Virus record (IMG/VR): IMGVR_UViG_3300043775_001610
Coordinates: 1-64,000 of that record
DNA: 64,000 nt
Strand: one strand, 5' to 3'
Source of the DNA: a virus
In this document: in pieces, positions 7,851 through 35,739 of the stretch
Layout: every line of letters starts with the position of its first letter
How positions within the stretch are numbered: the first letter of the stretch is position 1
Position numbers and translations under genes: made by a program
Notes under the pieces: model-generated
Told to the model about the DNA's origin: nothing
The model's database searches: none
What the model saw: the letters and a program-made list of their open reading frames with translations, nothing else

Positions 7851-8579
7851 ATGGAACCATATGCATCTATAGTTAAAAATCAGATTGATCAAATTCTAGA
7901 AAAAGAACCTAATGCGGTTCTAATTGAAGATAACATAGTTGTATTAAAAAACTGGCTATCAGATGATCTTTGCGACAAACTAGTAAGCCATGTAGAATCA
8001 TTTGGAGAAGATATCTGGTGGGACAGAAATAAAAGAGAATGGTGGCATGGCAAGTTCTTTTTTATAGAAGATCCAGAACTTGATGAAGAGCTAAAACATA
8101 TGCGTATAAGGCTACAGGAGCTCTTTAGACAGGAGCTTTGGGTCGAAAGCATGAACTCTGTTCATAGAATGACCAAGGGGCAGTCTATGTTCTTACATGC
8201 TGATAATTTGTCGGAATCACTAGGTATGGATAATAAATGCGTATTTGGTGTAACACACTATCTAAGCAATTTTGACGGTGGTGAAATATCCTATCCAAAT
8301 GTTAAGTTTATGTATAAACCTGAAAAGGGAGATTTGCTGCTACATCCTGGATTTGAAAAATATGCACACTATACAGAAGAAGTAAAAGGTGATAGGGTTA
8401 GATATATTGTAGCTGGATTTGCTTCACTTCCAGAAGCGCAAGCATTAAGAGAAAATGACCAGCTATATGAGGGTATTAATGCAATTAAAATGTCTAGTGC
8501 TATAACTGGAGAATATGGCGAAAATGATTTGCCAAAGAATTTCTACACTTTGCCATTTGAACATTCGGAAAAAAAATAA
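7851..8579 (+). CDS. 2-oxoglutarate/Fe(II) dioxygenase, 242 aa
   Basis: A prolyl-4-hydroxylase-like jelly-roll oxygenase. The iron ligands H116-x-D118 (FLHADN) and H173, with R182 nine residues later for 2-oxoglutarate, are all present. The core signature NFDGGEISYP and the strand KPEKGDLLLHPG lie between them. Such enzymes couple 2-oxoglutarate and oxygen to hydroxylation, often of Pro or Lys in proteins. The substrate is unknown. ATG 7851 is chosen because it lies at the predicted transcription start of a leaderless promoter. It is the first of ten relatives in the window. Confidence 0.88.
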   Translation: MEPYASIVKNQIDQILEKEPNAVLIEDNIVVLKNWLSDDLCDKLVSHVESFGEDIWWDRNKREWWHGKFFFIEDPELDEELKHMRIRLQELFRQELWVESMNSVHRMTKGQSMFLHADNLSESLGMDNKCVFGVTHYLSNFDGGEISYPNVKFMYKPEKGDLLLHPGFEKYAHYTEEVKGDRVRYIVAGFASLPEAQALRENDQLYEGINAIKMSSAITGEYGENDLPKNFYTLPFEHSEKK

Positions 8580-8588
8580 ATTTAAGTA

Positions 8589-8618
8589 TTGACTTCAATA
8601 AAAGTTAAATGCTACACT
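8589..8618 (+). promoter_or_regulatory. rightward promoter before structured leader and tRNA-Ile
   Basis: TTGACT (8589-8594), 18 bp, extended -10 TGC-TACACT (8613-8618). The next gene-sized product is about 190 bp away, so the transcript would begin with a long untranslated or structured region and could include the micropeptide and tRNA. Confidence 0.55.
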
Positions 8619-8641
8619 TAGTTTGCTTTGTGGGGGCTTAC

Positions 8642-8686
8642 CCTGAAACTCAATATGTACCAGATATAATCTGTGGGTATTTCAGG
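8642..8686 (+). ncRNA. possible structured RNA or leader
   Basis: Nested complementary segments: CCTGAAA (8642-8648) with TTTCAGG (8680-8686), TACC with GGTA, and AGAT with ATCT around a 3-nt loop. It starts about 17 nt after the predicted transcript start. It is followed near 8720-8736 by two GGGGGG tracts. No known RNA family is recognised. The remainder of 8690-8812 shows no gene. Confidence 0.35.
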
Positions 8687-8812
8687 ACTGCTTCTCTATC
8701 TTTCCAAAAAGTTAAAATTTGGGGGGTAGGGGGGCTTTCCTAAAATCTAATATCCCCAGATAAATCATTAAAAAACATAAAGAAAATACATAAGAAAAGG
8801 CGGGATAGAAAG

Positions 8813-8890
8813 ATGAAGAATCTTATTGCAGTAGCCATAATAACTGTCATTACTTTTATCCTTGGCATACTCATACAGATAATAGGCTAA
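8813..8890 (+). CDS. single-helix membrane micropeptide, 25 aa
   Basis: Reads MKNLIAVAIITVITFILGIL plus a short hydrophobic end. It is almost entirely one transmembrane helix with a basic N-terminus. A GGCGGGA purine-rich site lies 12 nt upstream. It ends 5 bp before tRNA-Ile. It could be a small holin-like or regulatory membrane peptide, or chance; there are no paralogs in the window for support. Confidence 0.4.
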   Translation: MKNLIAVAIITVITFILGILIQIIG

Positions 8891-8895
8891 TATAA

Positions 8896-8970
8896 GGGCC
8901 TATAGCTTAATCTGGTTAAAGCAATTGTCTTATATGCAATCGACTTTGGGTTCAAATCCCAATAGGCCTA
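8896..8970 (+). tRNA. tRNA-Ile(TAT), reads AUA
   Basis: Cloverleaf: acceptor GGGCCTA/TAGGCCT, D arm GCTT/AAGC, anticodon stem ATTGT/GCAAT with loop CTTATAT, and T arm TTGGG/CCCAA with loop TTCAAAT. The discriminator is A. The anticodon is UAU, specific for the AUA isoleucine codon. CCA is not encoded. Most bacteria read AUA with a lysidine-modified CAU tRNA, so this is a true phage supplement for an AUA-rich coding set. Confidence 0.9.
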
Positions 8971-8971
8971 C

Positions 8972-9000
8972 TTGGTTTCTCATTTAATAAGGAGTATAAT
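8972..9000 (+). promoter_or_regulatory. rightward leaderless promoter
   Basis: TTGGTT (8972-8977), 17 bp, TATAAT (8995-9000). ATG 9007 follows exactly 6 nt after the -10 box. An AAGGAG at 8988-8993 overlaps the spacer and would not be transcribed. Confidence 0.55.
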
Positions 9001-9006
9001 ACTTAT

Positions 9007-9159
9007 ATGCTAGCTTATGATGTCCCTCTTTCCGCCCTCCTTTTTGTGATATGGGCTGGGTTACCAGCAGAATACACAGATCAGCCTACTGAGGAAGAAA
9101 TCCTGGCATATATCCAGATGTTGAAGAATATCATAGATAATGAAAATAATGGTCTCTAA
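9007..9159 (+). CDS. small membrane-associated hypothetical protein, 50 aa
   Basis: MLAYDVPLSALLFVIWAGLP is a hydrophobic N-terminal segment. An acidic helical tail with EEEILAYIQMLKNIID follows. It may be a membrane-anchored peptide. Expression from a leaderless start is predicted by the TATAAT-N6-ATG arrangement. No family is recognised. Confidence 0.5.
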   Translation: MLAYDVPLSALLFVIWAGLPAEYTDQPTEEEILAYIQMLKNIIDNENNGL

Positions 9160-9210
9160 TTTTCGGCTCACTTTTCGCCGCACTTTCTGAAATCAATAAG
9201 GAGATATGTT

Positions 9211-9963
9211 ATGTCTATAGAAGTTGAAATATACAACGATAAAATTTTTTATTTTAAAAATGCAATACCTAATTCTAAAGAAATTCTAAAGTATATAGAA
9301 TCTACGTCAAATGATATTATTACCGATTGGCTACCATGGGGAAATAAATATGCGTTTTCATTAGAGCAAAAAAAAGATTGGGAAGAATTAGGAATTACTC
9401 CAGAAGACTTTGGGTTAGCTAAATGTATATATGACCCAAACTGGTTTGACCCACATAAAAAAGATACTGAAAGTCATTGGGTATTTGAATCTATTAATAA
9501 AGCTGTTATAGATTGCTCAGATAAGTATGCAAATTATTTAGGGATAGACACTACCTTGAATCCTAGAATCCCATCGCCTGGGTATGTTATTGGTAAATAC
9601 AACTCTATGCAATCTAGAGGACTGCACACAGACTGCCCCTATGATGACCTAGAGCACTCCTTTGTCATATATTACAATGATGATTATTCTGATGGATATT
9701 TATATTTTCCAAACTATAATTTACAAATAAAACCAGAATCTGGAAGCATCATCATGTTTAAATCTTCGGATCTAGATAATGAACATGAAGCTGTTCCTAA
9801 TATAGGTTTTAAGTACATAACCCCACATTTTTGGAGAATGGGTCCATCACAAGGGTTTGTACCTTGGGGATTCAAAGATGTTAAATTACCAGAAGACATA
9901 ACTAATGATTTTTATAACTTAGAAACAGTAGAAAGAAATAAAAAACGGATATTTGGTGAATGA
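9211..9963 (+). CDS. 2-oxoglutarate/Fe(II) dioxygenase, 250 aa
   Basis: Iron ligands H139-x-D141 (LHTDCP) and H192 (NEHEAVP). A Lys (K201), not Arg, occupies the 2-oxoglutarate-binding position. The conserved YYNDDYSDGYLYFP and IKPESGSIIMFKS strands match the other paralogs, except that Gly-Tyr replaces the usual Gly-Glu. A normal AAGGAGATAT ribosome site precedes the ATG. The stop overlaps the start of the next oxygenase in ATGA. Protein substrate unknown. Confidence 0.87.
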   Translation: MSIEVEIYNDKIFYFKNAIPNSKEILKYIESTSNDIITDWLPWGNKYAFSLEQKKDWEELGITPEDFGLAKCIYDPNWFDPHKKDTESHWVFESINKAVIDCSDKYANYLGIDTTLNPRIPSPGYVIGKYNSMQSRGLHTDCPYDDLEHSFVIYYNDDYSDGYLYFPNYNLQIKPESGSIIMFKSSDLDNEHEAVPNIGFKYITPHFWRMGPSQGFVPWGFKDVKLPEDITNDFYNLETVERNKKRIFGE

Positions 9964-10556
9964 TGGATAAAGTATACTTAGATGAAAACATATTTTATAT
10001 AGAAGATTTTATATCTAAAGAAGATATTGCCAAAATTCAAAAATCTATAAAGTCTAATTCTTACATTGAAGATTATGGACATTTAGCTCACACATCTTTA
10101 ATTTTAACAGAAAAAAGTTTAGTTGAAACTTGGAATTTTTATTTATCTAAATTAGAGGATATTTTTAATAACTCAACCGAATGGTTAGTACGTCCATATA
10201 CAGACTTTATCTCATTAATTAAATATAGAAATATTGATTTTTTATCAAAAGACACTCCTATAGAGTTTTTAAACTCGGAATATATAATGCCACCGCATGC
10301 AGATGACGTTTCATACGATCTATCTGAAAAAGATTTAAATGAAAGAAAGTCTTTTGTATCAAAAGGTTTAGTTATATTTATTAATGATGATTTTGATGAC
10401 GGTGAAATTGTTTATGTTAATAAAGGCATATCTGTAAAGCCAAAATCTGGAACTCTAATTTGTCACCCTGGCACAAAAGAATACTCCCATGCAGTAAATA
10501 GATTTTATAATGGAGATAGAGTCATAGCGTCAATGTTTGTTCACAAAAAAATTTAA
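9960..10556 (+). CDS. 2-oxoglutarate/Fe(II) dioxygenase, 198 aa
   Basis: The shortest intact copy. It has H113-x-D115 (PPHADD), H177 (SHAVNR) and R187, with FINDDFDDGEIVYV and KPKSGTLICHPG between them. It is translationally coupled to the previous oxygenase (ATGATG at 9960), so the two may work together. A strong hairpin follows its stop. Confidence 0.86.
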   Translation: MMDKVYLDENIFYIEDFISKEDIAKIQKSIKSNSYIEDYGHLAHTSLILTEKSLVETWNFYLSKLEDIFNNSTEWLVRPYTDFISLIKYRNIDFLSKDTPIEFLNSEYIMPPHADDVSYDLSEKDLNERKSFVSKGLVIFINDDFDDGEIVYVNKGISVKPKSGTLICHPGTKEYSHAVNRFYNGDRVIASMFVHKKI

Positions 10557-10573
10557 TTATATAGATAAAAATA

Positions 10574-10607
10574 AAACCCCAATCAGAGGCGGATCCGATT
10601 GGGGTTT
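10574..10607. terminator. strong hairpin between converging units
   Basis: AAACCCCAATC and GATTGGGGTTT form a perfect 11-bp stem with a 12-nt loop. A second hairpin, CTTACGT-GCAT-ACGTAAG, lies at 10612-10629. It sits between the rightward oxygenase genes and the leftward cassette, so it may act as a bidirectional terminator. The classical T-run is lacking. Confidence 0.6.
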
Positions 10608-10654
10608 AGCACTTACGTGCATACGTAAGGAGTATTATCTCAACTTACGTAATT

Positions 10655-10795: not shown

Positions 10796-10801
10796 AAACT
10801 A

Positions 10802-14852: not shown

Positions 14853-15200
14853 ATGGCAGGACAAAAGAATTTCGAAGTAGATCAAAATGCAACATTTAGT
14901 TTTATAGTAGAATATAAAGACGAAAATGACGATGCGATTGATCTTACTGGTGCATCTGCAAAGATGCAGGTGCGTGATACAAAAGGCGGCAGCAAGTTAG
15001 CTGTTACATTAACATCACCATCTGGCGGAATTACAATTGATGGACCTAATGGTAAATTAACTGTAAAAATGACACCAACACAAACAAGCAAAATCTTTTA
15101 TCCTAAATCATCTTATGATGTTATGGTTGTAGATTCTAATGGGAATAAGATAAAGCTCCTTGAAGGGTTTATGACCCTAAATAGATCGGTAACTATTTAA
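14853..15200 (+). CDS. tail or baseplate beta-sandwich protein, 115 aa
   Basis: The beta-rich sequence (FEVDQNATFSFIVEYKDEND, ASAKMQVRDTKGG, YDVMVVDSNGNKIKLLEG) resembles the N-terminal domain of BppU-like baseplate upper proteins and fibre adaptor domains. It probably starts the fibre gene cluster and may link appendages to the tail. The TAA overlaps the next ATG. Confidence 0.6.
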   Translation: MAGQKNFEVDQNATFSFIVEYKDENDDAIDLTGASAKMQVRDTKGGSKLAVTLTSPSGGITIDGPNGKLTVKMTPTQTSKIFYPKSSYDVMVVDSNGNKIKLLEGFMTLNRSVTI

Positions 15201-15640
15201 TGACTGAATCCGTAGTTGTTCGAGAGCAAATAAATAAAGTAGTAATTTCTTCTCCAGGTCCACAAGGACCAAGAGGAAGAACCATTCTAAATGGAAATGG
15301 AGACCCAGCAGCAAATTTGGGTCTTACTGGAGATTTTTACTTTGATATGCTTTCAGCTGCATTTCACGGACCAAAGCTTTCTGATTTAAATTGGTCAGGA
15401 GCAAGCAAAATATTTTTAACAAATAATACACTAGCGTATCCTTGGGAATTAACCCAAGTTACTGGTCCTTTATCTGGAGTGTATTCTGTTGTTATTAATC
15501 ATGGACTAGGATATCAACCAAACGTAACAGTTAAGTCTAGTGCAGGGGATATTTTGGAAACTGGAATAGACTACAATAGTACTAATCAAATAACACTGAC
15601 TATGGCTCAACCATTTTCAGGGACAGCATACCTGTCATAA
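15200..15640 (+). CDS. tail fibre protein with short collagen-like motif, 146 aa
   Basis: A GPQGPRG collagen-like triplet run (residues 20-26) follows a short N-terminal strand. The C-terminal half (GVYSVVINHGLGYQPNVTV, then DYNSTNQITLTMAQPFSG) matches the small beta-domain that often caps phage fibres. The collagen-like prolines are of interest beside the prolyl-hydroxylase-like array. Coupled to its upstream neighbour. Confidence 0.65.
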   Translation: MTESVVVREQINKVVISSPGPQGPRGRTILNGNGDPAANLGLTGDFYFDMLSAAFHGPKLSDLNWSGASKIFLTNNTLAYPWELTQVTGPLSGVYSVVINHGLGYQPNVTVKSSAGDILETGIDYNSTNQITLTMAQPFSGTAYLS

Positions 15641-24748: not shown

Positions 24749-27361
24749 ATGGCAACAGTAAGATTACAGTTAAGAAGAGGTACAGAAGCTCAATGGGTGG
24801 CAGCAAACCCAACCCTAGCAGCTGGAGAAATTGGTATTGAAACAGATACTAATACATTTAAATTTGGAGATGGAAGCACTGCTTGGAACTCACTAAGTTA
24901 TGCTCTCTCACAAACAGTAGACGATTATATTCTTCTAAGCACTAAGGGGGTTGCCAATGGAGTTGCTTCATTAGACTCATCAGGATTTATCCCATCATCT
25001 CAACTTCCACCGCTTGCTAAAGTAACCGTAAGCGCTGTTGCAAACCAAGCAGCAAGACTAGCATTGACAGCAGAAGCTGGAGATATTGCTATTCAGTCAG
25101 ATAACGGACAGTCATATGTTCTTTCTGCATCACCTGCATCAACAGATGCAAACTGGAAAGCACTAGTTGGTTCAGAAGCTGTAGTCGATACCGTAGAAAC
25201 AGCATTAGTAGCTGGAACAGGATTAGACAAGACATATAATGATGAAGCAGGAACAATTACAATTGATATTGATTCAACAGTTGCAACACTAACTGGTACA
25301 CAAACACTTACAAATAAAACTTTAACATCTCCAGTTATTAATACACCAACTGGAATTACTAAGTCAGACGTTGGTCTTGCAAATGTTGATAATACAGCAG
25401 ACTCAGCAAAACCAGTATCAACAGCACAAGCATCAGCAATTGCAACTGCCAAGTCAGAAGCTCAAGGATATGCTGATGAGCAAATTGGATTAGTACTTGG
25501 TGCTGCACCAGCAGCGCTAAATACTCTTAACGAGTTAGCAACAGCACTTGGTAATGACGCAAACTTTTCAGGAACTATTACATCAAGCCTTGCAACAAAA
25601 GCTCCAATAAATGCACCAACATTTACTGGTTCTGTAACACTTCCTTCTACAACAACCATTGGCGATGTAAGCAATGTAGAGCTAGGTTATGTAAACGGAG
25701 TAACTTCTGGTATTCAGGTTCAGCTCGATGCAAAAGCACCACTAGCCTCACCAACACTTACTGGTACAGTAACTCTACCAGAATCAACTTCAATCGGTGA
25801 CGTTAGCAATCTAGAAATTGGTTATCTCAACGGCGTTACATCTTCAGTTCAAGGACAAATTGATGCTAAGTTAGCATCAGCAACTGCCGCAACAACTTAC
25901 GCACCACTAGCCTCACCAACACTTACTGGTACAGTAACTCTTCCAGCATCAACTTCAATCGGTGACGTTAGCAATCTAGAAATTGGTTATCTCAACGGCG
26001 TTACATCTTCAGTTCAAGGACAAATTGATGCTAAGTTAGCATCAGCAACTGCCGCAACAACTTACGCAACACTTGTAGCACCAACATTTACTGGAAATGT
26101 AACTCTTCCAGAATCAACTTCAATCGGTGATGTTAGCAACCTAGAAATAGGTTACCTAAACGGAGTAACATCTGGTATTCAAATACAACTAGATGCCAAG
26201 CAGGCAGTTGTTGCTAACGTTTCAGATGTTGAAATTGGCTACCTTGATGGAGTAACATCAGCAATTCAAACTCAATTAAATACCAAGCAGCCAGTTGTTG
26301 CCAACGTTTCAGATGTTGAAATCGGTTACCTTGATGGAGTAACATCATCTATTCAGACTCAAATTGATACTAAAGCACCACTTGCTTCCCCAACATTTAC
26401 AGGAACAGTAACACTTCCTGCAAATACAATTACTCAATCAATGATGTCAGATGATTCAGTTGGAACTGCAGAAATTATTGCAGCATCGGTAACTAGCTCA
26501 GAACTTGCAGTTGATTCAGTAACTGAATCAAAGATTGCAGATGGCGCAGTAACTTCAGCTAAAATTGCAAACGGAACAATCGTAGATGCAGACATTAATG
26601 CTTCTGCAGCAATTGCAACATCTAAGATTTCAGGACTCGATACAGCTCTTGGACTAAAAGCACCACTTGCCTCACCAACATTTACAGGCACAGTATCAGG
26701 AATTACAAAGACTATGGTTGGGCTTGGATCTGTTGATAATACAGCAGACTTAGCAAAGCCAGTATCAACAGCACAGGCTACTGCAATCGCAACTGCTAAG
26801 TCAGAAGCAATTGCAGATGCAACAGCACAGGTAAATGCAGTAATTGCATCTGCTCCAGCAGCACTCAACACACTTGATGAACTTGCTGCAGCACTTGGTG
26901 ATGACGCAAACTTTGCATCGACAGTTACAACTAATTTAGCAGCAAAAGCACCACTTGCTTCCCCAACATTTACTGGTACAGTAACAGTTGCAGCAGCAGG
27001 AGTAGCATTTACAGATGGCACTCAAACAAAAGCTGGTGTCCCATCACTTACAACAATTGGAACTGAAATCTCAGCAGCATATAACCTGTCAACAGGTGGC
27101 CTTGCCCTAAGAGATCAACTTATCCCAGTTGCAGGAACACAGGCAATTACAATACCAACAAATGCAACAACAGCTTTTCCGATTGGTACATCAATTGATT
27201 TTTACCAAGCATCAGGAACTGGCGCAAACTTTGTAGCAGCAGATGGTACAGTTACAATTCTTCGTACACCAGGATTAAAACTAAGAACAACACATTCATC
27301 AGCAACACTTACCAAGGTAGCAGTAAACACTTGGTTGCTAGCTGGAGACTTGACAGCATAA
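24749..27361 (+). CDS. large tail fibre with Mtd-type N-terminus and tandem modules, 870 aa
   Basis: Residues 1-47 (ATVRLQLRRGTEAQW, GEIGIETDTNTFKFGDG) repeat the Mtd-like N-terminus of the 17394 fibre. Residues about 290-560 contain six tandem modules with SIGDVSNLEIGYLNGVTSSV-type signatures separated by APLASPTLTGTV strands. The LNTLDELAAALGDDANFAST module is shared with other fibres. The beta-rich C-terminus (TAFPIGTSIDFYQASGTG) resembles that of 17394. Probable receptor-binding or side fibre. Confidence 0.78.
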   Translation: MATVRLQLRRGTEAQWVAANPTLAAGEIGIETDTNTFKFGDGSTAWNSLSYALSQTVDDYILLSTKGVANGVASLDSSGFIPSSQLPPLAKVTVSAVANQAARLALTAEAGDIAIQSDNGQSYVLSASPASTDANWKALVGSEAVVDTVETALVAGTGLDKTYNDEAGTITIDIDSTVATLTGTQTLTNKTLTSPVINTPTGITKSDVGLANVDNTADSAKPVSTAQASAIATAKSEAQGYADEQIGLVLGAAPAALNTLNELATALGNDANFSGTITSSLATKAPINAPTFTGSVTLPSTTTIGDVSNVELGYVNGVTSGIQVQLDAKAPLASPTLTGTVTLPESTSIGDVSNLEIGYLNGVTSSVQGQIDAKLASATAATTYAPLASPTLTGTVTLPASTSIGDVSNLEIGYLNGVTSSVQGQIDAKLASATAATTYATLVAPTFTGNVTLPESTSIGDVSNLEIGYLNGVTSGIQIQLDAKQAVVANVSDVEIGYLDGVTSAIQTQLNTKQPVVANVSDVEIGYLDGVTSSIQTQIDTKAPLASPTFTGTVTLPANTITQSMMSDDSVGTAEIIAASVTSSELAVDSVTESKIADGAVTSAKIANGTIVDADINASAAIATSKISGLDTALGLKAPLASPTFTGTVSGITKTMVGLGSVDNTADLAKPVSTAQATAIATAKSEAIADATAQVNAVIASAPAALNTLDELAAALGDDANFASTVTTNLAAKAPLASPTFTGTVTVAAAGVAFTDGTQTKAGVPSLTTIGTEISAAYNLSTGGLALRDQLIPVAGTQAITIPTNATTAFPIGTSIDFYQASGTGANFVAADGTVTILRTPGLKLRTTHSSATLTKVAVNTWLLAGDLTA
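25770..26150 (+). repeat. near-identical tandem modules in fibre gene
   Basis: A block of about 145 bp starting near ACTCTACCAGAATCAACTTC and containing ATCGGTGACGTTAGCAATCT is repeated two and a half times almost exactly. This implies recent duplication inside the fibre shaft. Confidence 0.75.
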
Positions 27362-27390
27362 TTAAAAAAATAAAGATAGGGGCTAAATAA

Positions 27391-28434
27391 ATGGCAAATA
27401 AGAGAATAGGTAGAAAATCCTCAGCGCAGGATAACTTCTTAGAACCAAGTGCAGTTACTTCCTTAACTGCAACAAATGTGGGTACTGGGCGGGCATATAA
27501 TAATGGCGCAGCATCTCTTACATGGTCTTTGCCAGCCGCATCACCCCCAGCAACACTTTATACCATTACATCAACCCCAGCAACAACAACACAAACTACT
27601 TCTAGCACTAGTTATACATTTACTGGATTAGCAAGTGCCACGGCTTATACTTTTACAGTTGTTGCTTCAAACGCTGCGGGATCATCTCAGCCAACAACAT
27701 CAGGATCAATAACTGCTACAACAGTTCCGCAAGCTCCAAACGCATCTGTTTCAACAAGTGCCGCTGGGCCAACCCCAGTCCCAGCTTCTGGCTTTGACAG
27801 AATTACTTTTTCTGCAAACGCTACAGGTGGAAGCGCAATAACTACTTTTCAAATTACTTCTAGCATTCGTGGATCTTTGTCTGCTTCTGCAACATCTCCA
27901 TTTGATACAGCATCTCCAAACTCTGAAACTTATACTGTTTACGCAACGAATGCAAATGGACAGTCTGCTGGCACGACAACTGGAACTGTAGAAACTTTTA
28001 CGCCACCACACTTCCCACCGTTCTTCCCACCGTTCTTCCCACCACATTTCCCACCATTCTTCCCACCTTTCTTCCCACCACACTTCCCACCGTTCTTCCC
28101 ACCACACTTCCCACCGTTCTTCCCACCGTTCTTCCCACCACATTTCCCACCATTCTTCCCACCACACTTCCCACCATTCTTCCCACCATTCTTCCCACCG
28201 TTCTTCCCACCGTTCTTCCCACCACACTTCCCACCGTTCTTCCCACCACACTTCCCACCGTTCTTCCCACCGTTCTTCCCACCGTTCTTCCCACCGTTCT
28301 TCCCACCTTACTTCCCACCGTTCTTCCCACCACACTTCCCACCGTTCTTCCCACCGTTCTTCCCGCCACACTTTGTAGGAGGATCCTACTTCTGCCCATG
28401 GTGTGATTGCGCAGGGTCTAACTGGTACTGCTAA
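27391..28434 (+). CDS. fibronectin-like protein with ~30 [F/H/Y]FPP repeats, 347 aa
   Basis: Residues about 15-110 and 112-203 are two fibronectin-III-like beta sandwiches ([34 protein letters not shown]). Residues about 205-327 consist of roughly thirty four-residue units FFPP, HFPP or YFPP. The C-terminus is short and Cys-rich ([13 protein letters not shown]). Half of the repeat is proline, so an extended polyproline-II rod with an aromatic/His surface is likely. It lies between fibre genes and the main cluster of prolyl-hydroxylase-like oxygenases. It is probably a virion appendage; its function is not known. Confidence 0.7.
28003..28370 (+). repeat. 12-bp tandem repeat encoding [F/H/Y]FPP
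   Basis: About thirty near-identical 12-bp units (TTCTTCCCACCG, CACTTCCCACCA and variants) run without a break. Third-position differences show the array is under some drift, yet every unit keeps the -FPP triplet, and most variation is confined to the first residue. Confidence 0.92.
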
Positions 28435-28444
28435 TTAATACTAA

Positions 28445-28470
28445 CTGGGGCAATAGAAATATTGCCCCAG
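28445..28470 (+). terminator. hairpin after FFPP-repeat gene
   Basis: CTGGGGCAAT and ATTGCCCCAG form a perfect 10-bp stem with a 6-nt loop, 11 bp after the stop. A TTG-TACAAT -10-like box (28496-28503) follows before the next gene, so the transcript is probably restarted here. Confidence 0.6.
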
Positions 28471-28520
28471 GGTATTGATAAAAAATAAAAAATATTGTAC
28501 AATTATTAAAAGGAGATATA

Positions 28521-28967
28521 ATGCCATACTTTGGATATGTAAGAGACGGAATAGTCAAATACGTTCAGCTTGTAACAAGCTCTACCCCCGCACAGTCAAA
28601 ATGGATAGCGCTAAATAGATCAGGAGTTATCTTAAAAGACTCAAGTAATTACGATGTAATGCCAGGAGACTTGTTTACTGATGGTAAATTTTATAAAAAA
28701 GACGCCGAAACTAATAATACAACTTTACTAGAAGATGGTGCATTTACTCTCCCAAACGCAATAAGAGTTGCTGGAATTGTTGATGGCGAAATAGTCGGAC
28801 AATGGGGAATGGGAACAGAACTCTTTGAAAACATAGAAGAAGCTCATCAGTTTATTGATGATATAGTTAACTCTCAAATAGTTGAAATAGAACAAGAGCA
28901 GCAGTTTTTAGTTGAAAAAGGTTGGCTTTATGATGGAGTCAATTTTACTAACCCAGACAATGCTTGA
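28521..28967 (+). CDS. hypothetical structural-region protein, 148 aa
   Basis: Beta-rich start (YFGYVRDGIVKYVQLVTSS) and an acidic helical C-terminus (FIDDIVNSQIVEIEQEQQ). It contains a VAGIVDGEIVGQW strand reminiscent of the 92-residue protein at 21002, which also sits beside a zinc-protein copy. AAAAGGAGATATA is the ribosome site. Function is unknown. Confidence 0.55.
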   Translation: MPYFGYVRDGIVKYVQLVTSSTPAQSKWIALNRSGVILKDSSNYDVMPGDLFTDGKFYKKDAETNNTTLLEDGAFTLPNAIRVAGIVDGEIVGQWGMGTELFENIEEAHQFIDDIVNSQIVEIEQEQQFLVEKGWLYDGVNFTNPDNA

Positions 28968-29221
28968 TGAGCAGCGATAGCAAAAAAAGTGCTTGGGAAA
29001 AGTATAAAGAAAGTCTAGGAGACTCCAGACCTTGGGATTTTTTAGATCCAAATACAAAATATGTAGATAAATCTGTATCTGAAAAAAGATACAGTATTTG
29101 TCTATCTTGTCCAGAATTTATAAAAACAACAAAACAGTGTAAAAAATGTGGCTGTGTAATGACTTTAAAAACTAAACTTAGTAACGCTGAGTGTCCAATA
29201 GAAAAATGGGGAAAAGAATGA
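28967..29221 (+). CDS. small Cys-rich zinc protein, copy 2, 84 aa
   Basis: Paralog of the 20754 gene: PWDFLDPNTK, ICLSCPEFIK, QCKKCGCVMTLKTKL and ECPIEKW align throughout. ATG 28967 is used rather than the TTG three bases upstream; it overlaps the previous stop as TGATG. It is directly coupled to an oxygenase gene downstream by ATGA, which links the zinc protein to the modification cluster. Confidence 0.65.
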   Translation: MSSDSKKSAWEKYKESLGDSRPWDFLDPNTKYVDKSVSEKRYSICLSCPEFIKTTKQCKKCGCVMTLKTKLSNAECPIEKWGKE

Positions 29222-29880
29222 TGTATGAAAAAGAAGAGCTATTTCCAGGACTTTGGGTATATAGAAACGTAATTACTCCAGAGATGGATATAATTAATAG
29301 GCTAGAAAACGCTATAAGTAATTCCAAAGGTATGCATACTTGGAAAGAAGCAACAGTCGGATACAGAGAAAAAATGCCTGACTATAGAGATTGCGTAGAC
29401 TTTAAATGGAAAAAGTTCGATGATGATTTTGGAAACAAATACAATACCGAAGTGAATTCAGTATGGCAAGATGTATATGATGTTCAGGCTGTTGCACTAA
29501 ATGATTACTCTTCTTTTTACAATATTGAGTTAAAGTATTGGGAAGCAATGAATTTTATTAAATATGGAGAAGGTCAACATTTTTCTTACCATTCAGATCA
29601 TGGTTGGTCATATATATCAACAGTATCAATGGTTGCATATATTAACGATGATTATGAAGAGGGCGGACTAAGATTTGATAAGCTTGATTTAACAATAAAA
29701 CCAAAAGCTGGAGACCTATACATATTCCCATCTACATATTTATTTTCACACGCTGCTCTTCCAGTAAAATCTGGTATTAAATATTCAATTGTTACAATGA
29801 CAGATTATAATGATGCTACACATACAGAATCTTTTTATAGACAATTTATGTCTGAAAAGTCAATGAAAGATGGGTACTGA
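29218..29880 (+). CDS. 2-oxoglutarate/Fe(II) dioxygenase, 220 aa
   Basis: H125-x-D127 (SYHSDHG), H178 (FSHAALP) and K188, ten residues after the distal His as in collagen prolyl 4-hydroxylases. AYINDDYEEGGLRFD and IKPKAGDLYIFPS are the conserved core. ATG 29218 overlaps the preceding TGA. It is the first of the main six-enzyme run, and it is likely to act on protein, with substrate unknown. Confidence 0.87.
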   Translation: MMYEKEELFPGLWVYRNVITPEMDIINRLENAISNSKGMHTWKEATVGYREKMPDYRDCVDFKWKKFDDDFGNKYNTEVNSVWQDVYDVQAVALNDYSSFYNIELKYWEAMNFIKYGEGQHFSYHSDHGWSYISTVSMVAYINDDYEEGGLRFDKLDLTIKPKAGDLYIFPSTYLFSHAALPVKSGIKYSIVTMTDYNDATHTESFYRQFMSEKSMKDGY

Positions 29881-30614
29881 TGAACTTTGATGTTTATAAA
29901 GTTTATCCAAATCAATCAGCAAATATCCAGCCTTTAGGTGTAAAAAGAGAATGGATGGATGAGACATCTGATAAGCATGCTTATCATTGTTTTCCAGTAA
30001 GCTTATCAAATACTTTAGGTTGGGGAATTTCTTTTCCAGTTGATATTGAATTTATTTGGGACGGTATATCAGATTCAACGGATACTCATGTTAAGGTTTT
30101 AAAGGGTCACGAGTATGTTTCAACCTCAAGGGCTAATGCAACCATTAGCTTTAATACAAATTTGGTAATAAGAAGCGAAGAAAATGTAAGTATGCTGGCT
30201 ATGCCGACACCAAACTGGCCAATAGATGGCGTTTGGCCTTTTACAACGTTAATAAGCACTTCATTTTTTAAAGGAACATTTCCTGTTGCATGGAGAATAA
30301 CAAAGGCTAACGAAGTTATTACTATACCAGCTAACACGCCAGTAGCATCAGTAATTCCTATATCTTTATCTAACTTAAACAATTCAGTAGCAACAATAAA
30401 AGGATACAAAGACTTGCCTATAGACTTTTTCCCAAAAGAAGACTACGGTAAAATTGTTAGCGATATTAATAAATCTGGAAAATGGACTGACTTCTATAGA
30501 AATGCTGTAGACCATAAGAATAATAAAATTGGATCTCATGAGGTAAAATCTTTAAGATTAAAAAATGATGAAACTTTCATAGATGGTCCAGAAGGCTGCG
30601 GTATACCAAAATGA
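29880..30614 (+). CDS. DUF6065 family protein, copy 2, 244 aa
   Basis: The N-terminus (VYKVYPNQSANIQPLGVKRE, WMDETSDKHAYHCFPVSLSN) and the middle (PVDIEFIWDG, GVWPFTTLISTSFFKGTFP) match what I recall of DUF6065. It ends with VITIPANTPVASVIPISLS. No catalytic motif is identified. It is translationally coupled to an oxygenase upstream and another DUF6065-like gene downstream, suggesting cooperation, perhaps as a binding or structural partner. Confidence 0.68.
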   Translation: MNFDVYKVYPNQSANIQPLGVKREWMDETSDKHAYHCFPVSLSNTLGWGISFPVDIEFIWDGISDSTDTHVKVLKGHEYVSTSRANATISFNTNLVIRSEENVSMLAMPTPNWPIDGVWPFTTLISTSFFKGTFPVAWRITKANEVITIPANTPVASVIPISLSNLNNSVATIKGYKDLPIDFFPKEDYGKIVSDINKSGKWTDFYRNAVDHKNNKIGSHEVKSLRLKNDETFIDGPEGCGIPK

Positions 30615-31330
30615 ACAAGATAACATTTCATTCTAACAAGCATTATAATGATACAGAAACAGCACCCTGCCCAACTGCAAAAGTTATACCAAAATGGTGG
30701 CATGATGCTGATATTTATATAAAAGATTTTTATGGCAATCCAGTTTCTAATGCAAATAAAGACGGCGGTAAGATGCTAAACTTTAAAGCATGTCCAGCTA
30801 TGCTTGATACATTTACAACAGGATACACACTTGTTACACCTTGTGATATAGAATTTTATGAAAAAAATAATAGAATCAAAGCAAAAGTTCCATTAAAGTT
30901 TGATGATTTTGTTGGAGAGAGGCCAGCATCTGATGGATTCCAAGTTCCTTTTGGCTATGATAAGAATCATTTTCATTGGTATGCTAATTGGGCTCCACAG
31001 CTACCAGAAGGGTACAGCTCTTTGTATGTTCAGCCTATAAATCATTTTGATTTACCATGGCTTACTGTTGGTGGTATAATAGATAGTGATAAGGTTACAA
31101 CCTCTGGGCTGATACCGTTTTTTATACAAAATGGATTTACTGGCGTTGTTCCAGCAGGGACACCATATTTACAAATAATACCATTTAAAAGAGAAGATTG
31201 GGAATCAGATTTTATTTTTCATAAGCCAATTGATATTATGCAAAAAGCTATGAAGACGTCAGAGACTTTTAGAACACCAGAGGGTGGAGTCTATAAGAAG
31301 AAATTTTGGACTAGAAGGAGATATAAGTAA
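30611..31330 (+). CDS. DUF6065-like protein, copy 3, 239 aa
   Basis: Closer to copy 1 than to copy 2: AKVIPKWWHDADIYIKDFYG, FTTGYTLVTPCDIEFYEKNN, FVGERPASDGFQVPFGYD and AGTPYLQIIPFKREDW. Beta-rich, probably jelly-roll. Start overlaps the previous stop (ATGA) and its stop abuts the next ATG. Function is unknown. Confidence 0.6.
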   Translation: MNKITFHSNKHYNDTETAPCPTAKVIPKWWHDADIYIKDFYGNPVSNANKDGGKMLNFKACPAMLDTFTTGYTLVTPCDIEFYEKNNRIKAKVPLKFDDFVGERPASDGFQVPFGYDKNHFHWYANWAPQLPEGYSSLYVQPINHFDLPWLTVGGIIDSDKVTTSGLIPFFIQNGFTGVVPAGTPYLQIIPFKREDWESDFIFHKPIDIMQKAMKTSETFRTPEGGVYKKKFWTRRRYK

Positions 31331-32020
31331 ATGGAAAAAAGATTAAATACCAATAAAACTCACGACTACAGGTCTTTGGGATCTATAACTCCATCTGGAT
31401 TCTTTGGCGCAGGACCTGAAAATATTGTAGAGTTAAAAAACTTTTTAACAGATGAAGAAAGAGTAAGACTCACCCACTTTGCTAAAAACAATACAACTTG
31501 GGATATTACAGATTCTCACGTAAATGAAAATGGAACTGTGATATATGATGCTAACGCTTGGCACGACAGAGTTTGCACTCGTAGATCTATGGAAATTTCT
31601 GCTGACCCACATATTGTAGATGTTGTAGACAACCTAATATCCAGACTGCAGGTAGAGGTAGAAAAATTTTTTAACGTTAAGGTACAAGCAACAGGCCCAG
31701 CTATTGTTAGATGGCCAATAGGGTCAAGACAGGATCCACACGCAGACAAAGAGCTTCACGAAGGTCCAGATGCAGGAACTCCAAACGATTTTCCACATTA
31801 CGATATAGCTTCATTATTTTATTTTAACGATGACTACGAAGGCGGAGAATTGTTTTTCCCTGTTCAAGGAATAGAATTTAAACCTGTTGGGGGATCAGCA
31901 TATTTTTTCCCAGGAGATAAAAATTATATTCATGGAGTAAGACCAATTATCGCAGGAGGAAGATACACCTCACCATTCTTTTGGCAGATACTTGAGCACA
32001 CTGGTGACATAAAGCCATGA
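31331..32020 (+). CDS. 2-oxoglutarate/Fe(II) dioxygenase, 229 aa
   Basis: H137-x-D139 (DPHADKE), H201 (YIHGVRP) and R211. FYFNDDYEGGELFFPVQG and KPVGGSAYFFPGD complete the double-stranded beta-helix core. It is an Arg-type member, resembling bacterial peptidyl hydroxylases. Coupled to the genes on both sides. Substrate unknown. Confidence 0.88.
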   Translation: MEKRLNTNKTHDYRSLGSITPSGFFGAGPENIVELKNFLTDEERVRLTHFAKNNTTWDITDSHVNENGTVIYDANAWHDRVCTRRSMEISADPHIVDVVDNLISRLQVEVEKFFNVKVQATGPAIVRWPIGSRQDPHADKELHEGPDAGTPNDFPHYDIASLFYFNDDYEGGELFFPVQGIEFKPVGGSAYFFPGDKNYIHGVRPIIAGGRYTSPFFWQILEHTGDIKP

Positions 32021-32871
32021 CCCTTGAATATAAAGAGATATATCCAAAGATATGGGTATTTAAAAATCCATGGAAAGACATAGACCTATTAACAAAAACA
32101 ATAATTGATTCGGAACAAAACCCAGAAGGCTCTGCTTTAAATTGGCATGGCTGGTACACCTTTGGAAAAGAAGCTGATCAGTTTAACCATTCAATTGAAT
32201 CATCTGAAAGAACTGAATTAGAAAAACGTTTCTGGGATGAAATAATTGAGGTTTTTAATAAAACAACAAGTCAGTATGCGGATACTTTTAGCGTACCACT
32301 TGATAGAGACGCAATAGTTTTTAACGAAGAAACTGGAAACGATGATCCTATGTGGAAAAGAATGGGACCTTCAATATGTAAGTATGAAGTCGATGGAGGA
32401 ATTGAAGATTCCGACCTTGCAATGCATGTACATACAGACTACCAAAGAGACTATCATGATTTTAGAGGATATAAGTTTACGTTTACCTGCACCATGTATT
32501 TAAATGGAGACTATGAAGGCGGAGGACTTACTTTTTTGGTAGACAATAAAACTCTTTATTACAAACCAGAAAAGGGCGACATTTTGTTATTCCCAGCAGG
32601 AGACCCAGATTTTCTTTCCGATGCTGGACAATTTTATATGCATGGAGTTGAAAAAGTTAAGGGCACCCCTAAGTATTTTGTAAGAAACCATTGGGTTAGA
32701 TTTTATCCTGGATCGCCAGAATGGCTAGAAAACGAAAAACTTTATGGAAAAGAAATATGGAAAGAAATGGAAATTGCCAGAACTAAAGAAGAAAGAAAGT
32801 CTGGAGCTTATCAAACAATAAACTATGATGAACTTAAAAAGCTAGAAAGGATTAATTTAAATGACATTTAA
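32017..32871 (+). CDS. 2-oxoglutarate/Fe(II) dioxygenase, 284 aa
   Basis: The longest copy. H139-x-D141 (VHTDYQ), H209 (MHGVEK) and K219 are preserved, with MYLNGDYEGGGLTFLVDN and YKPEKGDILLFPAGD between them. About 45 extra C-terminal residues form a charged helix (EIWKEMEIARTKEERKS). The start overlaps the previous stop in ATGA. Confidence 0.87.
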   Translation: MTLEYKEIYPKIWVFKNPWKDIDLLTKTIIDSEQNPEGSALNWHGWYTFGKEADQFNHSIESSERTELEKRFWDEIIEVFNKTTSQYADTFSVPLDRDAIVFNEETGNDDPMWKRMGPSICKYEVDGGIEDSDLAMHVHTDYQRDYHDFRGYKFTFTCTMYLNGDYEGGGLTFLVDNKTLYYKPEKGDILLFPAGDPDFLSDAGQFYMHGVEKVKGTPKYFVRNHWVRFYPGSPEWLENEKLYGKEIWKEMEIARTKEERKSGAYQTINYDELKKLERINLNDI

Positions 32872-33613
32872 TTTAGAAAATCAGAATAGAGTTAAAGAAG
32901 ACATAGTGTTTTTTGAAAATTTTCTTAGTCCAGAAGATTGCGAAAAAGTTATTAAATATTGGGAGCATTCTGTAGAAAAAGGAACTCTTCCATGGGCACC
33001 AATATCATTCTACGATTCCTTTGCTTCAAATTTACCAGACGATGAAGACAAGGAAAAGTTTGGCCTTCCTTCTGATTTTTTTACTAAGCTTCAAGATAAA
33101 ATACAAGAGGCTACAGAAATATGTAGAGGCGATAAGGTTAGACTAGTTAGCTATCACGCACAGAAATGGGTAGAGGGAGCTTATGCAGGTTACCATTCAG
33201 ACAATACCCCAATAGATTCTCCAGAATACAACTCTTTTGAAAGAAGCAAGTGGGCAGCATTCCTTTACTTAAATGATGATTTTGAAGGTGGCGTTTTAAA
33301 CTTTAGGGATCATGATATTTCTTTGCAGCCAAAAACTGGAATGCTAGCAGCATTTGCTGGAGGTCATCACAATATACATGAAGTACAAATGATTACTAAG
33401 GGAACAAGAATAACTATAGGATCATTTTGGGATAATGAAGAGGCTGTTTATAGCGAAGAAAAGCAGGCTATGTGGGAAACCGATATAGCAGATCAAAGAA
33501 AAAGACAGGCAGAGGACGCAGAGCTTTGGGCAGAACTTAAAGCAAGAGGTGAAAGACTAAAGCCTGGACCAGATCAAACTGCTAAAAAAGAAGTAGCATT
33601 GGAGATAGAATGA
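32861..33613 (+). CDS. 2-oxoglutarate/Fe(II) dioxygenase, 250 aa
   Basis: H112-x-D114 (YHSDNTP), H173 (NIHEVQM) and R183. LYLNDDFEGGVLNFRDHD and LQPKTGMLAAFAGGHH are conserved. A charged C-terminal helical extension (QRKRQAEDAELWAELKARGE) follows residue 195. It overlaps the upstream gene by 11 bp. Confidence 0.87.
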   Translation: MTFNLENQNRVKEDIVFFENFLSPEDCEKVIKYWEHSVEKGTLPWAPISFYDSFASNLPDDEDKEKFGLPSDFFTKLQDKIQEATEICRGDKVRLVSYHAQKWVEGAYAGYHSDNTPIDSPEYNSFERSKWAAFLYLNDDFEGGVLNFRDHDISLQPKTGMLAAFAGGHHNIHEVQMITKGTRITIGSFWDNEEAVYSEEKQAMWETDIADQRKRQAEDAELWAELKARGERLKPGPDQTAKKEVALEIE

Positions 33614-34419
33614 TAAAAACGACTGTATTAGAAAACGGAATGATTAGAGAAGAGCTTCACCCGCAAGTTTATTATTATAGAAATGCTATCCCTAATGTAA
33701 AAGAATGGCTAGATCTTGTAAATGATTCTGAAAATCATGAAGACCTTTATTCGATTATCACACCATGGAACACATGGGATGTAGATGAAAACAGAGCTTT
33801 TGGAAACCCTTATGTTTACGGATATAAAAAATTATGTTTGTTAAATAGTGTTTTTAATATAGATAAAGACGTCACAGAAGAAACAAAAGAGTTCTTTATT
33901 AAAATTAGAGATCCACTTTTTAATGCAATTAAGGCAGTTTGTGAAGATTATAAAGAGTCTCAAGGAATTAAAGAAGATATTATATTGCTAGAGCAATTTG
34001 GAGTTCATAGATATAGGTCTGGTAACTTTATGGGAGTTCATCATGATTCACAAGAAGGTGACACTAGACTTCTTTATTCCATGGTAGTTTGGCCTAATGA
34101 TGACTATGAAGGTGGAGAACTATCTTTTTCTATAAAAGACGGAGTTCTTACTAGCACAGAGCTTTCTTTGCAGGGCGATCTTTTTGATCCTAAAAATGAA
34201 GGCTTGTATGATTTTTATATTAAGCCAGAAGCGGGGAGCATAGTAATATTCCCTTCACCTTCTCCATTTAGCCATACAGCACATGTTGTTAAATCTGGAT
34301 GGAAGTATATGTTACCAATGTTTTGGATAGACCCTAATGGAGAAGATGCATTGTTTAAGCAAGATCCAGAGTGGCGGCCAGAGTTTGTTTACCCAGATAA
34401 AGAAGATTTATTTAAGTAA
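33610..34419 (+). CDS. 2-oxoglutarate/Fe(II) dioxygenase, 269 aa
   Basis: H144-x-D146 (VHHDSQEGDTR), H222 (SHTAHVV) and K232. WPNDDYEGGELSFSIKDG is followed by a 30-residue insertion before IKPEAGSIVIFPS. It is very similar to the next gene at 34465, including the QEGDxRLxYSM run, so the two are recent duplicates. Lys at +10 from the distal His matches the collagen-type prolyl 4-hydroxylase arrangement. Confidence 0.88.
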   Translation: MIKTTVLENGMIREELHPQVYYYRNAIPNVKEWLDLVNDSENHEDLYSIITPWNTWDVDENRAFGNPYVYGYKKLCLLNSVFNIDKDVTEETKEFFIKIRDPLFNAIKAVCEDYKESQGIKEDIILLEQFGVHRYRSGNFMGVHHDSQEGDTRLLYSMVVWPNDDYEGGELSFSIKDGVLTSTELSLQGDLFDPKNEGLYDFYIKPEAGSIVIFPSPSPFSHTAHVVKSGWKYMLPMFWIDPNGEDALFKQDPEWRPEFVYPDKEDLFK

Positions 34420-34426
34420 AAATATC

Positions 34427-34435
34427 TGGTACAAT
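34427..34435 (+). promoter_or_regulatory. extended -10 promoter before oxygenase gene
   Basis: TGG-TACAAT (34427-34435) in the 45-bp gap between two oxygenase genes, about 30 bp before the ATG, with an AGGAGG ribosome site. No clear -35 hexamer. Confidence 0.4.
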
Positions 34436-34464
34436 TATTACAAAAGTTATAAATAGGAGGAAGT

Positions 34465-35181
34465 ATGAAAAGCGAAGAATTATTTGATAAGGTGTATTAC
34501 TACACGGATGTTATAAAGGAGCCTAAAAAGCTTGTTGATTTAATCGAATCAACAGAATCTGATAAATACTCAAGCTTCATCACCCCCTGGGAAGAGTGGG
34601 GTGCATGTAGTGGACAAATGTACATTTATGGATCACACAAAAGAATAAAGTGTTTGTCTTCTGAAGATATAGAAAAAAATATATCCGAAGATGTTATAGA
34701 TGATTGCAACTATATTTTCAATGAGATATTTGATGGTATGAAAAATGTCTGTGAAGATTATGCTTCAAAAATCGGTGATGATGCTGAGATAATTTTAATG
34801 ACAGATACAGCAATTAAGAAATACATGCCTGGAACTTTTATGGGATCCCACTTTGATCAGCAGGAGGGGGATAGAAGACTTAGGTATTCTATGGTAATGT
34901 ATTTAAATGATGATTACGAAGGCGGAGAAATATCTTTTAATGTAAAAGATGGAGTATTGACTTCTACAGATGATGCCGCTGCAGAAGATTTTGATAGCCC
35001 ACTTAATCATGATAGAATTATGTTTCACGTTAAGCCGAAGGCTGGAAGCGTAATAATCTTTCCTTCAACAGATCCATATAGTCATACAGCACACCTTATA
35101 AAAGGCGGATCTAAGTATATGGTCCCTTCGTTTTGGCTTAACACTGGTAAATTCGTAGATGGCGTTTTTATTCCAAACTAG
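34465..35181 (+). CDS. 2-oxoglutarate/Fe(II) dioxygenase, 238 aa
   Basis: H129-x-D131 (SHFDQQEGDRR), H207 (SHTAHLI) and K217, with MYLNDDYEGGEISFNVKDG and VKPKAGSVIIFPS. It is a close paralog of the preceding enzyme with the same insertion between strands. The AGGAGGAAGT ribosome site and its own promoter-like box suggest independent expression. Confidence 0.88.
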   Translation: MKSEELFDKVYYYTDVIKEPKKLVDLIESTESDKYSSFITPWEEWGACSGQMYIYGSHKRIKCLSSEDIEKNISEDVIDDCNYIFNEIFDGMKNVCEDYASKIGDDAEIILMTDTAIKKYMPGTFMGSHFDQQEGDRRLRYSMVMYLNDDYEGGEISFNVKDGVLTSTDDAAAEDFDSPLNHDRIMFHVKPKAGSVIIFPSTDPYSHTAHLIKGGSKYMVPSFWLNTGKFVDGVFIPN

Positions 35182-35193
35182 AAAGAGTTAATT

Positions 35194-35739
35194 ATGGCAA
35201 TGTACGTTTTTCAAGAAATTGCACCAAAGACATTTTATTTTACATATTGTCTTCAAGAGATTGGGAACTATATAAGCTTCCTTGAAGAAAGCGAAAAGAA
35301 TCCAAGTAATTTAATTAGTCAGTGGCAAGACACAGAGTATGGATATGAGAAGAAGGTATCTTCTGATTTTTCTAACGAGTCTGGTCCAGTAGACACTCGT
35401 AGCCTTTTTATTATTAATAACTTGAAGGCGACATTCCATCACTGTTTTAGTCAGTATAAGATATTTAACAATATAGAAGAAGAAGTTAATCTAAGCACCG
35501 ACTATTTTGTAAGAAAACATAATGAAGGACAAGTAAAAAATAATTGTGGAGCAAAGGGCAAGTATACTGCTAGACTATATATTAACGATTCTTTTTCTGG
35601 TGGAGAAATTTCAATACCTGGAAAGCCTAAGTTTAAGCCAGAGGCAGGCAGCATAATTATCTCTCCATCAGATGTACAGGTGACAGCAGAACCAGCAAAT
35701 GGTAATTCAAGATACATTGCAATAGGTCATTGGGTTTAA
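35194..35739 (+). CDS. degenerate 2OG-oxygenase relative (pseudoenzyme), 181 aa
   Basis: The late core is clear: LYINDSFSGGEISIPG, FKPEAGSIIISPSD and SRYIAIGHW line up with the paralogs. However, the HxD iron motif is absent (NNCGAKGKY at the equivalent place) and the distal His is replaced (VTAEPANGNSRY), although the Arg remains. The frame is intact, so the loss looks selected rather than random decay. It may act as a non-catalytic partner. The alternative is a fast-evolving remnant. Confidence 0.72.
   Translation: MAMYVFQEIAPKTFYFTYCLQEIGNYISFLEESEKNPSNLISQWQDTEYGYEKKVSSDFSNESGPVDTRSLFIINNLKATFHHCFSQYKIFNNIEEEVNLSTDYFVRKHNEGQVKNNCGAKGKYTARLYINDSFSGGEISIPGKPKFKPEAGSIIISPSDVQVTAEPANGNSRYIAIGHWV

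Follow-up and report, generated by a model that had tools for sequence, protein, structure and literature searches.

Positions 1 to 64,000 of the viral record IMGVR_UViG_3300043775_001610, the 64,000 nt window analyzed here, encode a protein carrying an aromatic-proline rod and, behind it, an array of 2-oxoglutarate (2OG)-Fe(II) oxygenases (OX1 to OX7). We consider it fairly likely that the enzymes of this phage cassette hydroxylate the aromatic-proline appendage encoded with them, with proline as the probable residue. The proposal draws on gene content, catalytic motifs, conservation, the fold of OX1, the co-occurrence of rod and array among related phages, and gene order. A first-pass annotation of the window had described ten oxygenase relatives and had assigned them to the phage's own fibres, among them a collagen-like one. 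Its observation is confirmed and its interpretation is partly supported, the aromatic-proline rod and not a collagen emerging as the partner of the enzymes.

All ten open reading frames (ORFs) exist, and an alignment confirmed the motifs reported for them. Nine intact proteins share His, Asp and the distal His of the HxD...H triad in the same columns and have a Lys or Arg 9-11 residues after the distal His, and the degenerate copy starting at 35194 has a gap or Val at the catalytic columns and lacks both the triad and the basic residue. PF13640 matched nine of the ten window proteins, six of the ten above the curated cut-off of 27 bits. The degenerate protein was not matched by PF13640 and was found with phrog_61 alone (5e-6), a family that eight of the ten matched at E ≤0.01, the exceptions being the proteins starting at 9211 and 9960. 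Ten relatives is the correct number for the window, but the record as a whole holds twelve: a PF13640 search of the entire record gave ten matches, including a pair beyond the window at 104046 and 105375 (genes at about 103.7-105.7 kb); to these ten are added the degenerate copy and the 9211 protein, which matched PF13640 in the window search and was absent from the whole-record listing. Seven of the twelve, six intact and one degenerate, form one operon-like array at 29218-35739.

The genes of this region, on the plus strand from rod to LamG, follow the order rod, small protein, DUF6171, OX1, DUF6065, DUF6065-like, OX2-OX6, OX7, LamG, small gene and portal. The rod protein (27391..28434), the proposed substrate, comprises an FN3 domain (fn3, 2e-9), the [F/H/Y]FPP repeat (about 28003-28370), for which about 30 copies had been estimated and exactly 30 were counted, and a Cys/Trp-rich end. 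It is followed by a small protein without a Pfam match that varies among relatives (28521..28967) and by a Cys-rich DUF6171 protein (28964..29221; 4e-6), whose gene overlaps OX1 by 4 bases. OX1 (29218..29880; H125, D127, H178, K188) is prolyl-4-hydroxylase-like; a DUF6065 protein (29880..30614; 1e-32) and a DUF6065-like protein (30611..31330) separate it from OX2 (31331..32020; H137, D139, H201, R211), OX3 (32017..32871; H139, D141, H209, K219), OX4 (32861..33613; H112, D114, H173, R183), OX5 (33610..34419; H144, D146, H222, K232), OX6 (34465..35181; H129, D131, H207, K217) and the degenerate OX7 (35194..35739). The LamG/concanavalin-like gene (35766..37526; 5e-15) closes the island ahead of the portal gene. 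From 28964 to 34419 consecutive genes abut or overlap by 1-11 bases, in keeping with the ATGA-type coupling noted in the first pass, and OX6 and OX7 come after gaps of 45 and 12 bases. Across 46 viral loci found with OX5 as the sole query, the order of the enzymes is constant as far as each locus extends. The small genes behind the rod vary, two loci (L039 and L058) having no DUF6171-like match; L058 also carries additional oxygenase copies, and extra genes lie between OX7 and LamG in L054 and L060.

The first-pass annotation had proposed to look for co-occurrence of FFPP-type genes and oxygenase arrays in related phages. In the following comparisons rods were defined by a regular expression, and oxygenases in the loci were called by a profile built from this array and its relatives. 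A search with the portal protein alone returned at least 599 loci, and among the best 80, 33 had at least 9 kb ahead of the portal gene. In the first table 16 loci had both rod and array, 13 had neither, four had an array without a visible rod and none had a rod without an array. Rods were found at L293 and L294 on extending upstream, a third unclear locus proved rod-bearing from further loci on its contig (L060, L319), and L199 was left out as its rod region was not covered. In the final set, 19 of 32 loci have both rod and array and 13 have neither (Fisher 3e-9, uncorrected for kinship). Six of the 13 rod-less loci were extended further upstream and showed no rod and no oxygenase, and the other seven were covered in their 9-10 kb. 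On the best portal tree there are five state changes, at least three of them on well-supported branches.

The pairing extends to whole records. Among records taken from 34 chosen loci, the 18 rod-bearing ones, three of which had originally been found through an oxygenase, gave 116 PF13640 matches in 875 kb (5-10 each), and the eight rod-less ones gave a single match in 332 kb; records with an incomplete pre-portal region were left out (G087-G091, G102 and G110 with no match each, G109 with one). Nine of the 18 records have matches at more than 10 kb from the array, 18 of the 116 in all, and therefore oxygenase copies outside the cassette track the rod too. These data also bear on the idea that the oxygenases modify other island or virion proteins, such as the fibres, LamG or the Cys-repeat protein, with the rod as a hitchhiker. 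We regard this as unlikely: LamG does lie directly behind the array, and cyanophages have oxygenase genes behind tail-fibre genes without F/P repeats, but the rod-less relatives retain LamG, relatives of the fibre at 24749 and the GPQ protein, and in seven of the eight such records no PF13640 match was found. One of them (G080) further has the DUF6065-like, DUF6171-like and small companion genes. LamG, the 24749 fibre, GPQ and the DUF genes are kept without oxygenases and are therefore not what demands them; among the island genes examined, the rod alone goes with the oxygenases.

The converse searches gave the same picture. We sought arrays lacking a Pro-rich appendage gene, a case named in the first pass as speaking against modification of the appendages. 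With OX2 as the sole query, a rod is seen at 60 of the best 80 loci. Where at least 1.5 kb lies ahead of the first oxygenase, 48 of 49 loci have a rod, and the exception (L326) starts inside the array; with less than 1.5 kb ahead, a rod is present in 12 of 31 and absent from 19. When viral contigs were scanned with the DNA pattern of the FPP repeat alone, at least 120 stretches were found, and oxygenases occur in 84 of the 120 loci listed. Within 5 kb of the FPP rods, 190 same-strand oxygenases lie downstream versus 3 upstream, the available DNA being 353 kb downstream and 279 kb upstream (binomial 1e-43, near-identical contigs included). An oxygenase follows within 150 bp for 26 of 94 rods versus 80 of 427 control ORFs, within 1 kb for 48 of 78 versus 115 of 387, within 3 kb for 51 of 63 versus 141 of 298, and within 6 kb for 34 of 38 versus 121 of 173, the control ORFs including genes within arrays. 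Of 50 viral records that contain the FPP pattern, chosen from 80 listed and mostly longer contigs, 46 match PF13640, versus 1 of 29 records found by an arbitrary 15-mer (702 kb, unmatched in habitat and length). Up to eleven oxygenase copies were called at one locus (L116) by the array-derived profile.

In bacterial genomes, 15 rod matches were obtained, of which four look real, each with fibre or oxygenase genes of phage type beside it; oxygenases accompany three of these, and the fourth contig ends just behind the rod. These four (L388, L392, L398 and L399) are contigs of metagenome-assembled genomes (MAGs) labelled Verrucomicrobiales, Gammaproteobacteria (two) and Chitinophagaceae, with a rod and phage-type genes, and are probably phage DNA binned with the MAGs.

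What the enzymes are was addressed with profiles of OX1-OX6 and with a structural model of OX1. The OX1 profile, built from 80 relatives, matched prolyl 4-hydroxylases (P4Hs) best (1.3e-10), followed by PKHD-type hydroxylases, lysyl hydroxylase LH3, the enzyme of Paramecium bursaria chlorella virus 1 (PBCV-1) and prolyl 3-hydroxylase 1; the mimivirus lysyl hydroxylase (6ax6) was matched at 9e-4. Prolyl 3-hydroxylase 1 came first for OX2 and OX4 (2.3e-7 and 2.1e-9, with P4H at 1e-6 and 7e-6), and OX3 had a weak match to P4H (0.0035). Structure prediction, also suggested in the first pass, gave an AlphaFold model of OX1 (79 rows) with a mean predicted local distance difference test score (pLDDT) of 93.6, and its best fold matches by Foldseek and VIA are algal, viral, bacterial and animal prolyl hydroxylases. 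The top match is Chlamydomonas P4H-1 (2jig; 3gze with a Ser-Pro peptide), an algal enzyme with a cell-wall role and 21% identity to OX1 in the structural alignment. The match to 3gze (Z 19.9, root-mean-square deviation 2.2 Å, 173 residues) is tied with several others, animal PHD-type and Pseudomonas putida P4H entries lying within 1 Z unit of it. The P4H of PBCV-1 (vCPH, 5c5t), likewise a virus-encoded P4H fold, is the third-best Foldseek match (VIA Z 17.4, 2.3 Å over 159 residues). By sequence profile and fold OX1 is thus prolyl-hydroxylase-like, the P4H-like double-stranded beta-helix resting on the OX1 model; hydroxylation of peptidyl proline itself is predicted.

These matches argue against a role in nucleic-acid repair or base modification of the AlkB/TET kind, which we judge to be very improbable. 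The PHROGs label of some matched families is 'DNA endonuclease', and DNA repair is quoted for phage 2OG genes in passages of two papers (PMC9146016, PMC3037559). However, the profile and fold matches are mostly to prolyl and lysyl hydroxylases, the genes sit in an appendage island, and PHROGs labels are annotations and not tests. AlkB families were missing from the Pfam listing at 0.1 and from the fold-match rows shown, which in itself carries no weight against this role. A host-directed or metabolic role is somewhat less remote, though still improbable. The enzymes might hydroxylate a host protein such as EF-Tu, and a bacterial P4H-EF-Tu complex (4iw3) is indeed among the best fold matches of OX1, or they might lower or exploit 2OG, as proposed for cyanophages in connection with 2OG and nitrogen control (passages of PMC3037559). 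Such a role leaves unexplained the linkage to the rod, the order behind it and the presence of up to eleven copies per locus. DNA repair or 2OG modulation is also mentioned in a passage of PMC10611076.

The catalytic residues are invariant in the alignments of OX2-OX6; that of OX1 has three of them invariant, with the Lys retained in at least 90%. The ratio of nonsynonymous to synonymous substitution rates (dN/dS) is 0.02-0.19 for OX1-OX6, except for one pair at 0 and two undefined. In OX7, none of 14 aligned rows, the last two of which are 22-23% identical to the first, combines HxD/E, the distal His and Lys/Arg. Seven comparisons with the window nevertheless give it a dN/dS of 0.06-0.17 (a near-identical pair gives 0, and one comparison is undefined), and OX7 is therefore retained and not decaying: it is under purifying selection despite its lost catalytic residues. 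A neutral expansion, in which a duplicated cassette was spread by recombination and most copies do little, would account for the many paralogues and for the one without catalytic residues. It is nonetheless the least credible of the alternatives, as OX1-OX6 keep their catalytic residues, dN/dS is far below 1 for every one of the seven array genes where measurable, and the enzyme order is constant across the OX5-query loci as far as they extend, with extra copies in L058.

The rods themselves are variable in sequence and context. In 126 non-identical segments (loci L066 onwards), Pro makes up 40% and Phe 38.5% of the repeat, and Pro-Pro is preceded by Phe in 1498 cases, by Ala in 75 and by Ser in 57, in a set biased by the search pattern. 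Relatives have FF(G/A/S)PP, GFFSPP, FFPFFPP and RFFSPP repeats, and the pairing with the array persists. The N-terminal parts that carry the rods are of several unrelated kinds, and 183 rods, some of them from loci identified via an oxygenase, sort into 16 groups. An oxygenase lies within 3 kb downstream of 134 of the 183 rods; eight of the 16 groups include such a member, and the largest does so in 124 of 141 rods. By eye, the rod is followed in the same protein by a Hint- or intein-like stretch at L198, L206, L216, L222, L249, L261 and L215; a Pfam scan of the L198, L249 and L215 rods gave no Hint-like match. In L198, a phage of the GFFAPP type, a gene with a weak match to GNAT acetyltransferases, below cut-off, lies between rod and array (1110-1658).

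Modification of the GPQGPRG fibre (15200-15640), which the first-pass annotation had called collagen-like and named as a target, was rejected. Its longest Gly-X-Y run is three triplets, and rod-less relatives in which no PF13640 match was found also encode its orthologue. Scanning of all window ORFs of at least 60 amino acids (aa) found no Gly-X-Y run of eight or more triplets, and two GPx-GPx ORFs have runs of three. The viral hydroxylation of viral repeat proteins has precedents in PBCV-1 and in mimivirus, a giant virus whose lysyl hydroxylase acts on Lys in the Gly-X-Y repeats of viral collagens. Collagen hydroxylation of the PBCV-1/mimivirus type has a Gly-X-Y repeat partner, whereas the window of this phage is without one. 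The substrates of PBCV-1 vCPH are proline-rich peptides, and a rod-coupled array is not known from that virus.

Several observations weigh against hydroxylation of the rod. The case for it is built on gene comparisons, and the linkage of neighbours can reflect a cassette moving as one piece. A kinship-aware pair test, which counts changes only and in which the rod was assigned the same states as the array, as observed, yielded three independent pairs that agree in direction, with p 0.25. Five of the twelve oxygenases lie outside the array, apart from the rod. Oxygenases without a visible rod occur at L228, one of the 13 rod-less portal loci, as a single copy and at L235 as two, and other genes occupy the 1.3 kb before OX1 at L336 and L349. 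Behind 20 of the 183 rods, 3 kb of downstream DNA is visible and oxygenase-free, and in one group of 18 rods two have an oxygenase and nine are visibly without. Four of the 50 FPP records, fragments of 16-39 kb, gave no PF13640 match, two of them (L139 and L142) having one match each by the array-derived profile. The OX5 and OX6 profiles found no solved relative in PDB, and three cyanophage regions (ACG-2014h, Sf-FS3 and P-RSM4) have no F/P rods near their oxygenases. Lastly, the reference list of a review includes an analysis in which purified PBCV-1 particles reportedly contained no hydroxyproline despite the P4H of the virus (PMC7019647).

Some of these loci have further features of their own. 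By eye, the lone oxygenase of L228 (2758-7513) stands among epimerase-like and glycosyltransferase-like genes, perhaps a sugar-based alternative, and the genes just ahead of the arrays of L336 (107-811) and L349 (1-774) look sulfotransferase-like, with HIPRTSG near the start. In ACG-2014h the oxygenase genes lie directly behind a short tail fibre gene, in Sf-FS3 directly behind an S74-peptidase-domain gene, which we take to be of a fibre type, and in P-RSM4 the oxygenases start about 6 kb behind an annotated tail fibre gene. The wider rule may be fibre modification, with the rod system as its clearest case.

The first-pass annotation had suspected an undescribed modification system. Both the enzyme family and its occurrence in many copies per phage have been described before, and the rod-coupled array would be the new element. 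Cyanophage multi-copy oxygenases (phrog_61, T4-GC_104/412 and others) belong to the same Pfam family and are about 24-36% identical to those of this phage in the rows listed; ACG-2014h has ten PF13640 matches. According to passages of the respective papers, cyanophage S-SZBM1 has nine oxygenase copies (PMC9146016), 14 of 16 cyanophages carry the 2OG-Fe(II) superfamily (PMC3037559), a P4H gene is among the abundant phage accessory genes in Baltic water and the role of such genes is called 'cryptic' (PMC9301287), and oxygenase genes neighbour ferrochelatase genes in pelagiphages (PMC9599517). In the literature searched, with thin coverage of subscription journals and without bioRxiv, no paper describing the pairing of a phage rod with hydroxylases was found.

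Three oxygenases lie at the left of the window, also on the plus strand. The first (7830..8579; H123, D125, H180, R191) opens at 7830 and not at 7851 as annotated before, and matched PF13640 with 24.9 bits in the window search, below the cut-off, and with 27.3 in the whole-record search. The second (9211..9963; H139, D141, H192, K201; 8e-4) and third (9960..10556; H113, D115, H177, R187; 1.4e-3) match PF13640 below the cut-off, and their genes overlap by 4 bases. That oxygenases lie next to proline-rich appendage genes holds for the array behind the rod but not for these three genes (7830-10556), which have no adjoining appendage gene.

Streptomyces phage Yaboi and its kin have a portal protein 58.5% identical to the one encoded here, Yaboi being among the nearest named relatives by portal, and a WhiB-family protein (Pfam 3e-12) is encoded elsewhere in the 110,252 bp record; the host is therefore probably an actinobacterium. 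In Yaboi the gene order is ribonucleotide reductase, endolysin, a LamG-like gene, one small gene and portal. The fibre/rod/oxygenase island of about 21 kb is absent at the corresponding site of this isolated phage, and its whole genome (131 kb) gave no PF13640 match. Megablast of positions 26000-36000 and tblastn of the 33610 protein gave no match among phage records, and the isolates among the matches listed have remote oxygenases only and are mostly cyanophages.

Beyond the rod and the oxygenases, the DUF6065-like gene at 30611, which itself has no Pfam match, was considered as a further oxygenase, for which no support was obtained: its model showed instead a weak match to the dUTPase/dCTP-deaminase fold (E 1e-3), and no match under E 0.001. 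Four DUF6065-like proteins were noted, at 21300-21983 of the window, two within 29880-31330 and one at 8642-9418 of L011, the Pfam family matching the 29880 protein only; relatives of the 30611 protein are present in haloarchaeal tailed viruses. Other Pro-rich or repeat proteins were seen as well. In L260, APPDFTP repeats and, by eye, a Hint-like tail mark a second appendage (5982-7756), whose gene shares its final base with the start of an OX1-like oxygenase gene of its own directly behind. A second Pro-rich protein in the phage of L010 (7326-9527) has long PTPEP repeats and what looks like a signal peptide. In the window, a tail-region protein at 19148-20731 contains AQLNPAYSFSYS repeats and CPSGGSLSGSTCTVSVPASYS Cys repeats and has no Pfam match, and a GTG-started ORF of 3514 aa at 46813-57357 is, judged by position, probably the tape measure protein.

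From these comparisons we infer the substrate (the rod), the residue (proline), the place of the rod in the virion, and the timing and benefit of its modification, as follows. The rod gene product would be a tail or fibre protein anchored by its N-terminal FN3 part, with the aromatic-proline repeat as a very hydrophobic rod. Late in infection, the rod and the enzymes encoded behind it would be made together, and the enzymes would act on the repeat before or during assembly, using Fe(II), O2 and 2OG of the host. Proline would be hydroxylated first of all, at C4 and perhaps C3, with the paralogues taking different positions, and the beta-carbon of His or of an aromatic residue may be an extra site. 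That there are several paralogues points to more than one site or order of attack, and OX7 may bind the substrate or partner enzymes. A long Phe/Pro run should be poorly soluble, and hydroxyls would alter its solubility, stiffness or stickiness. More tentatively, and with some doubt on our part, this phage may stand for a widespread class in which the appendage becomes functional only after multi-site hydroxylation by a position-specific series of enzymes, the dead paralogue serving as a scaffold.

Phages frequently carry 2OG-Fe(II) oxygenases as accessory genes, whose role is left open in passages of the papers that report them (PMC9146016, PMC3037559, PMC9301287). The tight pairing of rod and array supplies a concrete and testable substrate. 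If rod hydroxylation is true, post-translational hydroxylation of structural repeats would extend to bacterial viruses, and the quality of the phage particle would be tied to the oxygen, iron and 2OG of the host. The modified rod would then be a phage counterpart of the hydroxyproline proteins of mussel adhesives and plant cell walls. That the rod and its enzymes are gained and lost together suggests that, in some phages, the virus itself carries out the chemical finishing of its surface fibres.

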